Below are positions 16,612-19,860 of a stretch of DNA of 64,000 nt, in pieces. The stretch covers positions 372,001 through 436,000 of the forward strand of contig CALMBW010000020.1 in the NCBI GenBank assembly GCA_937863385.1, given 5' to 3'. How positions within the stretch are numbered: the stretch's first letter is position 1; each line of letters opens with the position of its first letter. The stretch is from an uncultured Actinomycetes bacterium (GTDB lineage Bacteria > Actinomycetota > CADDZG01 > WHSQ01). The position numbers and the translations under genes are program-made. The notes under the pieces were generated by a model. It saw only the letters and a list, made by a program, of their open reading frames with translations. It was not told the origin of the DNA and searched no databases.

Positions 16612-17955
16612 ATGGGCATGACGTGGACCCCGGACAGTTGGAGTGGCCTAGAAGCCAAGCAGCAACCCGAGTGGCCCGACCCTGGGTCGCTCGAGTCTTC
16701 GCTCGACCGATTGAGAGTGGTGCCACCTTTGGTCTTCGCCGGCGAGGCACGGCAATTGACCGGCGCCTTGGCCCGGGTAGGTCAAGGCGAAGCCTTCCTG
16801 CTGCATGCAGGCGACTGTGCAGAGTCCTTCCGTGAGTTCTCCGCCGATTCCATCAGAGACCGCCTGAAGGTCATCTTGCAGATGGCCGTCGTGCTCACAT
16901 ACGCCTCAGGATTGCCGGTCGTGAAGGTCGGGCGTATCGCCGGCCAATTCGCCAAACCCCGGTCCTCGGCCACCGAAACCCTTGAAGGACGGTCACTTCC
17001 GGCTTTCCGCGGCCACTCGGTCAACGACGACCGCTTCGACGACGCCGCGCGGGTTCCCGACCCAACACGCATGCTGCAGGCGTACCACCAAAGCGCGGCG
17101 ACCCTGAACCTGATCCGTGCCTTCACGAAAGGTGGATTCGCGGACCTGCGTCAGATACACACCTGGAACCAGGAGTTCGTGGCCGGGAGCAAGCAGGGAC
17201 AGCGCTACGAACAGATCGCTCGCCAGATCGACAGGTCACTAGCATTCATGGCCGCCTGTGGGATCGACCTAGGTGCGGATTCGGCACTTCACGAGGTCGA
17301 CCTCTACACGTCGCACGAAGCTTTGTTGCTCCAGTACGAGGAGGCTCTTACCCGGCGTGACTCCCTCACCGGGGATTGGTACGACTGCTCTGCCCATCTG
17401 TTGTGGGTCGGTGAACGAACCCGGCAGGTAGACGGTGCCCACGTCGAGTTCCTCTCGGGTGTGCACAACCCAGTCGGCGTAAAGCTGGGCCCCTCTGCCG
17501 CTCCCGAAGAGCTGGAAGCCTTACTCGACAAACTCGACCCCGGCAACGTGCCCGGCCGGATCACACTGATAACCCGGCTGGGAGCAGGTTCGGTCGAGGA
17601 GAAGTTGCCTCCTCTGATCCAAGCGATCCAGGATTCGGGGCGAAACGTGGTGTGGGTTTGCGATCCGATGCACGGCAACACGTTCGTTTCGTCGTCGGGT
17701 TACAAGACCCGGCGCTTCGACGACGTTCTTGCCGAGATCAAGCAGTTCTTCGCCGTACACCAAGCGCACAACACGGTTCCGGGAGGCGTCCACCTCGAGC
17801 TCACCGCCGAGGACGTGACCGAGTGTCTCGGGGGGGCCGAAGAGATCCTGGATACGCAACTTGAGACTCGCTACGAGGCGTTGTGCGACCCCCGGCTGAA
17901 CGCCCGTCAGAGCCTGGATCTCGCCTTCCAGGTCGGCGAGATGTTGCAGGGCTGA
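16612..17955 (+). CDS. class II 3-deoxy-7-phosphoheptulonate (DAHP) synthase
   Basis: 447-aa plant/actinobacterial type II DAHP synthase, the first step of the shikimate pathway. Diagnostic segments are [10 protein letters not shown] (Cys69 is a metal ligand in the family), [23 protein letters not shown]-like metal-site context (encoded as [13 protein letters not shown]) and [10 protein letters not shown]. The first ATG is at 16612 and a second in-frame ATG at 16618. TAGGAT lies directly before the start, so a leaderless transcript is possible. Confidence 0.95.
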
Positions 17956-17962
17956 TGCACCG

Positions 17963-18202
17963 CTAACCCCCGATGCGTTCCCGGAGGTCTCTCAAGAGAT
18001 CGTCGGGCTCCGGGTGTTTACCCGTGCGCTTCTTGGAGTAGACACGCTCGGTGTCGAGATAGACCTCGAACACACCCCCCGTGGCCGGCTTCAACTCGAC
18101 CGTTTCGAGTTTGTGTTCGAACTCCTCAAGGATCCTCTCCGTCAGACCGACGGCTCTAGGTCCGTAGCCTCAGGTGCGGCAATATTGGATGGTGATCTTC
18201 AT
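17963..18202 (-). CDS. SelW/Rdx-family selenoprotein with in-frame TGA (Sec11)
   Basis: Unsplit 80-codon frame from ATG 18202 to TAG 17963, interrupted by one TGA at 18170-18172. With TGA read as selenocysteine it gives 79 aa beginning MKITIQYCRT-Sec-GYGPRA. The thioredoxin-fold Rdx family (SelT/SelW/SelH) has exactly C-x-x-C or C-x-x-U here, and the rest fits the family: TGGVFEVYLD near 40-50 and SKKRTGKHPE near 56-65. A SECIS-like hairpin with a GGUCU apical loop follows the TGA. SelW-like proteins are small thiol oxidoreductases of unclear substrate. It converges with the DAHP synthase gene 8 bp away. The alternative is a nonsense-mutated Cys homologue, but the stop falls precisely on the redox residue. 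No selA, selB, selC or selD gene is in this window. Confidence 0.82.
18130..18163 (-). promoter_or_regulatory. candidate bacterial SECIS element
   Basis: On the minus-strand mRNA, six nt after the UGA, GGACCU (18163-18158) can pair with AGG-A-UCC (18136-18130, one bulged A). An internal loop follows, then a 5-bp stem CCGUC/GACGG (18153-18149 with 18143-18139) closed by the loop GGUCU (18148-18144). The loop starts 21 nt after UGA. This fits the known bacterial SECIS layout (short stem, apical loop beginning with G, loop about 16-37 nt from UGA), and the same GGUCU sequence occurs in the apical loop of the E. coli fdhF SECIS. Confidence 0.72.
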
Positions 18203-18290: not shown

Positions 18291-18908
18291 GTGGTTTGGA
18301 TAGTCGTCGGGGTCGTAGCCCTAGTGGTGATCGTGGTCATCGCCATCTACAACCGCCTGGTCAAGCTGCGCAATCGCATCGAGGCTGCCTGGGCACAGAT
18401 CGACGTGCAACTGAAGCGCCGGCACGACCTGATACCCAACCTCGTGGAGACCGTCAAGGGATACGCGGCTCACGAACGTGAAACGTTGGAGAACGTGACC
18501 AAGGCTCGGCAGCAAGCCGTCGCCGCCTCAGGGGTCGAGAACCAAGCCCAAGCCGAGAACATGTTGACCGCAGCATTGCGTCAACTCCTTGCCGTTGCCG
18601 AGGCATACCCAGACTTGAAGGCGAATCAGAATTTCCTGGCGCTGCAGGAGGAGCTGACGGGCACCGAAGGCAGGATCGCCTTCTCGCGGCAGTTCTACAA
18701 CGAGCAGGTGCTCAGCTACGACAACTCCCTCGAGCAGTTCCCCACCAACATCATCGCGGGGATGTTCAACTTCGAACCCAAGCCTTACTTCGAGGCTGAG
18801 GAAGCCGCTCGTACGGTACCTCGGGTGGATTTCGGCCAAGGAGGTGGCTCCGGTGCTCCCGCTGCCACACCTCCCACCGCGACGCCCCCAGACCAGCCTC
18901 AAGCCTGA
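18291..18908 (+). CDS. lemA: LemA family protein
   Basis: 205 aa. An N-terminal hydrophobic helix (about 2-20) is followed by the conserved LemA core: YNRLVKLRNRIEAAWAQIDV, then QLKRRHDLIPNLVETVKGYAAHE, a helical bundle, and FSRQFYNEQVLSYDN. The tail is Gly/Ala/Pro-rich. Start is GTG at 18291, placed 8 nt after AGGAGGG; an ATG at 18284 is out of frame. It is followed after 16 bp by htpX, a pairing common in bacteria. LemA function is poorly known. Confidence 0.92.
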   Translation: MVWIVVGVVALVVIVVIAIYNRLVKLRNRIEAAWAQIDVQLKRRHDLIPNLVETVKGYAAHERETLENVTKARQQAVAASGVENQAQAENMLTAALRQLLAVAEAYPDLKANQNFLALQEELTGTEGRIAFSRQFYNEQVLSYDNSLEQFPTNIIAGMFNFEPKPYFEAEEAARTVPRVDFGQGGGSGAPAATPPTATPPDQPQA

Positions 18909-18924: not shown

Positions 18925-19860
18925 ATGTACGAGCGGATCGGATCCAATGTCCGCAAGTCGTGGTTGCTCGTCGGCGGCTTCGTCGTGTTCGTGTTGGTCG
19001 TCGGACTCGTCGTTGGTCAGGCGTTCGAATATGGGTACTGGCCTCTGGCGATATCCGGTGTCGTCGCCGTACTCATGTCCTGGGGGTCCTACTTCAACAG
19101 CGACAAGATCGCCCTCTCCATGAGCAAGGCAGTACCGGCAGACGAAACGCAGTACGCGCAGCTACACAACATCGTCGAAGGTTTATGCCTGGCTGCCGGG
19201 ATGCAGAAGCCGAGGGTCTACGTGGTGAACGACGACGCGCCCAATGCGTTCGCAACGGGGCGCAACCAAGAACACGCAGCGATCGCGGTCACGACCGGCC
19301 TGATGGAAAAGATGTCACGAGACGAACTCGAAGGAGTGATCGCCCACGAACTTTCGCACATCAAGAACCGCGACATCCTCGTCATGACTTTGGCCGTAAC
19401 CCTTGTGGGTGTGATCGTCTTGATGGCGGACGTGATGATCAGGATGTTGTGGTGGGGTGGCGGCGGGCGGCGCGACGACCGTGGTGGTGGCAACGCCGTC
19501 TTCGCGATCCTCGGCATCGTGCTCTTGATCCTGGCGCCGATCGTCGCCCAGGTCATGCACTTCGCCATCTCGCGGCGGCGCGAATTCCTCGCCGACGCGG
19601 ACGCCGTCTTCATCACCCGTTACCCGGACGGATTGATCAGCGCCCTTCAGAAGCTGCAAGCCGACCAGACCGTGGTGCGGTCGGGCAGCCGAGCAACCGC
19701 TCATCTATGGATCGAGGCACCCATCCCTAGAAGCAAGAACGAGGCCAGGGGCGGGCGAGGGTCGGGAGCCTGGTTGAACAGACTCTTTGACACCCACCCA
19801 CCCCTAGAAGACCGCATCGCTGCCCTGCAAGAGAGCAGCGTCGCTGGATCGCGTCCTTAA
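18925..19860 (+). CDS. htpX: membrane zinc metalloprotease HtpX
   Basis: 311-aa M48 protease for quality control of membrane proteins. Two N-terminal helices (about 13-31 and 38-55), the zinc site HELSH (141-145), two central helices around 150-170 and 185-210, and the third-ligand segment RRREFLADADA near 215 are present. A Gly/Arg-rich cytosolic loop (GGGGRRDDRGGGN) lies between the central helices. It is cotranscribed with lemA. Confidence 0.94.
   Translation: MYERIGSNVRKSWLLVGGFVVFVLVVGLVVGQAFEYGYWPLAISGVVAVLMSWGSYFNSDKIALSMSKAVPADETQYAQLHNIVEGLCLAAGMQKPRVYVVNDDAPNAFATGRNQEHAAIAVTTGLMEKMSRDELEGVIAHELSHIKNRDILVMTLAVTLVGVIVLMADVMIRMLWWGGGGRRDDRGGGNAVFAILGIVLLILAPIVAQVMHFAISRRREFLADADAVFITRYPDGLISALQKLQADQTVVRSGSRATAHLWIEAPIPRSKNEARGGRGSGAWLNRLFDTHPPLEDRIAALQESSVAGSRP

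Follow-up and report, generated by a model that had tools for sequence, protein, structure and literature searches.

SelW-like proteins with a CxxU motif are long-known bacterial selenoproteins, ranking first in abundance among the prokaryotic selenoprotein families in the marine data of both the Sargasso survey (PMC1088965) and the Global Ocean Sampling survey (PMC2398784) and occurring also in sequenced bacteria (PMC1794560), so that both the protein family and its mechanism were already known. The gene considered here lies in a stretch of 64,000 nucleotides (the window) from an uncultured Actinomycetes bacterium, and a comparison of sequences indicates that it is almost certainly a functional SelW-like selenoprotein gene in which an in-frame UGA is read as selenocysteine (Sec). 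It is like the described bacterial SelW-like selenoproteins in its family, in its CxxU motif, in having a selenocysteine insertion sequence (SECIS) directly after the UGA and in having Cys homologues (PMC1088965, PMC2398784). It differs from those of the marine surveys in belonging to an uncultured actinomycetote lineage and in standing beside a class II 3-deoxy-D-arabino-heptulosonate 7-phosphate (DAHP) synthase and LemA/HtpX. What is new, if mildly so, is a near-invariant SECIS core together with a second hairpin register 4 nt nearer the UGA, and no description of this core or of the two registers was found in the open-access literature. The features concerned are:

17963 to 18202, minus strand: selenoprotein gene of the SelW-like type (CxxU, Rdx family), with 79 codons and a TAG stop.
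18170 to 18172, minus strand: in-frame UGA, predicted to be read as Sec, at residue 11, the second redox residue of C-R-T-U.
18139 to 18153, minus strand: bacterial SECIS hairpin core, with a 5-bp stem CCGUC/GACGG and the loop GGUCU (18144-18148).

Read directly from the sequence, the minus-strand frame extends from an ATG at 18202-18200, through a single in-frame TGA at 18172-18170, to a TAG at 17965-17963. Since an in-frame TAA is found four codons upstream, this ATG is the sole possible start. With Sec at the TGA the predicted product is MKITIQYCRT-U-GYGPRAVGLTERILEEFEHKLETVELKPATGGVFEVYLDTERVYSKKRTGKHPEPDDLLRDLRERIGG, a protein of 79 residues with the N-terminal redox motif C8-R-T-U11. The translation matches the Pfam family Rdx (PF10262; E=2.4e-23, 82.5 bits against a cut-off of 22.6) over residues 2-74 of 79, spanning the TGA, and TIGR02174 CXXU_selWTH (E=3e-19, 69 bits against a cut-off of 34.2). 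Its matches at the sequence-profile level include the solved SelW/Rdx structures 2npb, 2obk and 2p0g.

A first-pass annotation of this DNA, whose features all lie at the positions that it gave, had placed the TGA on the second redox residue of the Rdx family, and the relatives agree with this placement. In a sample of 396 actinomycetote genomes, 55 carry an Rdx gene. Exactly one in-frame stop, always TGA, is present in the Rdx gene of 39 of these genomes and none in that of the others, and in all 37 TGA-bearing genes that could be parsed the TGA occupies the C-x-x-U column, i.e. the second redox position. When Cys homologues were aligned, as had been proposed as a check, Cys fell at this same column (L028, L034, L040 and further homologues). 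The relatives show no scattered stops or frameshifts. Differences from the Sec orthologues after the TGA amount to 0.30, 0.19 and 0.53 at codon positions 1, 2 and 3, respectively, and the dN/dS ratio (nonsynonymous to synonymous substitution rate) against the same orthologues is 0.22-0.52 in the coding region 3' of the SECIS. Judged by this pattern, the sequence after the TGA acts as translated protein under purifying selection, and the earlier claim that the gene is not decaying stands. A pseudogene, in which the TGC or TGT of a Cys-type rdx gene had become TGA, would require one mutation only, at a column where Cys homologues are known, but it is extremely improbable given that 37 divergent genes have the same TGA column and no other stops, that selection is purifying 3' of the TGA, that the SECIS codons are conserved and that the Sec machinery is complete (see below). 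We count it as refuted because the TGA recurs and the downstream sequence is constrained.

The bacterial SECIS model allows a loop of 3-9 nt, a stem of 4-16 bp, a G in the first two loop positions and a spacing of 16-37 nt between UGA and loop (PMC13188914). The hairpin of the window, CCGUC-GGUCU-GACGG, satisfies this model with a loop of 5 nt, a stem of 5 bp and the loop G placed as required; it starts 16 nt after the UGA, and 21 nt separate the UGA from the loop. The first-pass annotation had described just such a hairpin with a 5-nt GGUCU loop 21 nt after the UGA, which was found at 18153-18139 and proved to be both conserved and covarying. No Rfam family matched the SECIS of the window. 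For the window gene alone, the stem with the loop GU is mildly unusual when synonymous codons are resampled (P ~0.03). This value is unconvincing for a single gene, and therefore the weight of the hairpin rests on its conservation across genes.

This conservation is strong. Relative to the UGA, codon +6 is GCC in 37/37 genes (p=1.6e-12), codon +8 is GGT in 25/27 where 13% was expected (p=8e-21) and codon +9 is CTG in 25/26 (p=4e-10), although these p-values are overstated because they assume independence amongst genes that are related. Synonymous constraint peaks at the SECIS codons, while most other codons are used as expected. Two hairpin registers are found amongst the 37 Sec genes. Register A, to which the window belongs, is present in 26 of them; the 22nd nt after the UGA is the first of its loop, which reads GGUCU in all but one gene (AGUUU). 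Register B is present in the other 11; it has a covarying stem of its own, and its loop, CGUGN, begins at the 18th nt (gap of 17 nt compared with 21 nt in register A). GU at loop positions 2-3 is common to both. In a fixed-register test the register-A stem had 5.9 bp, against a mean of 2.1 bp with synonymous codons resampled; this test was used instead of an earlier hairpin test whose loose register-B criterion made it uninformative (37 observed against 30.6 expected). None of the 500 shuffles and no slid control reached the observed covariation score or percentage of paired cells; this control corrects for relatedness incompletely.

In Escherichia coli fdhF, SelB recognises the G and the U of the SECIS loop. 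The fdhF element is also a hairpin after the UGA, one with a bulged U, and has the identical loop string GGUCU, with the G followed by U, but its stem sequence is different and the spacing in the window is 3 nt longer. The GGUCU-loop SECIS sequence of fdhF was found in 5388 of 5426 E. coli genomes.

The Cys-form Rdx proteins of Actinomycetota (e.g. L022, L023, L028, L034) share the probable fold family and the second redox position with the window protein, but in their genes a Cys codon replaces the UGA and a GU-loop SECIS in register A is absent. L028 and L034 are orthologues that encode Cys and occupy the same position on the chromosome (DAHP synthase-selW-LemA-HtpX), in genomes that still have selA; their SECIS has been lost, the loop being GGC and the register-A stem broken. 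In the tree both are nested in an otherwise Sec-dominated group, with weak resolution from few columns.

The register-B genes all come from other Actinomycetota (L030, L037, L047, L050, L183, L192, L199, L200, L202, L203, L204). In a tree made with the SECIS codons masked, the register label needs four changes and a tree with one change was recovered in zero bootstraps, while the well-supported branches alone force only one change. These trees suggest that register B may have arisen, or that the registers may have switched, more than once. The A and B registers constitute a natural experiment on the requirements of SelB.

The first-pass annotation had also predicted a selenocysteine pathway for this organism, and all of its components were found in the source genome, a 2.77-Mb assembly that is 99.8% complete. 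These are selA (E=7e-161), selB (E=2e-88, over the cut-off), selD (E=9e-117) and a tRNA-Sec with the anticodon TCA (Rfam, 81.4 bits; ARAGORN agrees). A single contig carries selA and selB about 5 kb apart (C9), and the selB product has the SelB-wing_3 domain, the SECIS-binding winged helix. By analogy with established biology, a ribosome would reach the UGA at codon 11 of selW, and SelB, attached to the SECIS hairpin (CCGUC/GACGG with the loop GGUCU) through its C-terminal winged helix, would deliver Sec-tRNA(UCA) to the UGA, the Sec-tRNA being produced by SelA and SelD from seryl-tRNA and selenophosphate. The product would be an Rdx protein of 79 residues, thioredoxin-like and with a CxxU pair that would engage in thiol/selenol redox chemistry, its role probably being oxidant defence or work with glutathione-like thiols.

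UGA is reassigned in some bacteria and the frame here is open across it, so a suppressor tRNA or a reassignment might be imagined to insert another residue such as Trp or Gly. It is hardly credible, however, that the UGA is decoded in this way, as a tRNA-Sec with the UCA anticodon is present together with SelA, SelB and SelD, several relatives terminate the same gene with UGA, the homologues have Cys rather than Trp or Gly at the column, and a SECIS would be unnecessary.

Along with the overstated codon probabilities given above, several points weigh against the reading of the UGA as Sec. No selA match was obtained in 4 of the 25 TGA-bearing relatives of the first sample (G005, G012, G013, G032). 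Two of these genomes are incomplete (68% and 83%), while completeness reaches 98% in G012 and 94% in G032; in these latter two (loci L038 and L049) either selA is missing from the metagenome-assembled genome through an assembly gap or the UGA goes undecoded. Inspection of the sequence at the usual distance 5' of the selW ATG found no clear Shine-Dalgarno sequence. The incorporation of selenium into the SelW product is itself something that we infer from gene-level evidence. The lack of a clear Shine-Dalgarno sequence would suit a gene that is a selenoprotein gene by ancestry but has lost its decoding in the strain of the window and yields only a truncated peptide; with machinery and SECIS intact, no other stops and purifying selection, such a loss is highly improbable, and decoding of the UGA as Sec is the reading that we retain.

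SelW may be the main selenoprotein of the window's genome and thus the main reason why the Sec machinery is kept. The best formate dehydrogenase match in this genome (L184) has no internal stop and, by eye, a Cys at the residue that we take to be the Sec position. SelD (L018) is apparently the Cys form at its site, and selW was the sole match in the genome to a covariance model built on the register-A element. A GRDB search of the genome gave no match, its control having matched nowhere either. SelW as the main selenoprotein would be notable, since every selenoproteome in an early survey contained FdhA or SelD (PMC1794560).

In comparison with the bacterial SECIS consensus (PMC13188914), the window-type core sequence is nearly invariant across many genomes, and this provides a simple and exact DNA signature for SelW selenoproteins across phyla. 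The signature, TGARRNTAY-N9-GCCGTCGGTCTGRCGG, was matched by no fewer than 118 contigs, drawn from many phyla, in a search that itself imposes the SECIS and gives no measure of its invariance. On translation each of the 118 listed matches gives a SelW-like protein, with a contig end cutting two or three of them short. According to the uncurated record titles from which the phylum names are taken, the listed matches include Verrucomicrobia, Planctomycetota, Gemmatimonadetes, Acidobacteria, Chloroflexi, Armatimonadota, Zixibacteria, Krumholzibacteria, Deltaproteobacteria and others. As a predictive test, selA was looked for in 32 cross-phylum genomes chosen solely by the UGA and SECIS pattern, and was over the cut-off in 27. 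It is conceivable, but on balance doubtful, that the following all hold together: that the SelW SECIS, in contrast to most SECIS elements of bacteria, is one essentially invariant element (GCCGUCGGUCUGRCGG at a fixed spacing) over about a dozen groups of phylum rank; that register B was swapped in by some actinomycetote lineages, perhaps repeatedly; and that SelW is possibly the only or main selenoprotein sustaining the machinery in the window's genome. Gene callers that treat UGA as a stop miss or truncate the selW of the window, and therefore the use of selenium in uncultured Actinomycetota is probably under-counted.

One of the loci titled Acidobacteria (L079) shares its selW gene with G032, which is placed in the phylum of the window; its title is probably wrong.

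The neighbours of selW lie outside the Sec system:

16612 to 17955, plus strand: class II DAHP synthase, convergent with selW at a distance of 7 bp and conserved beside it in the family.
18291 to 18908, plus strand: LemA family protein, divergent from selW.
18925 to 19860: HtpX-like M48 protease, next after the LemA gene.

The order DAHP synthase-selW-LemA-HtpX is common to the orthologues of the window family, some loci being too short to show all four genes.

In the selW genes of twelve loci (L024, L035, L037, L038, L039, L042, L043, L046, L047, L048, L050 and L051) UGA occurs twice, at the Sec position and as the terminal stop. With both uses in one short gene, the context, i.e. the SECIS, must decide how each UGA is read.
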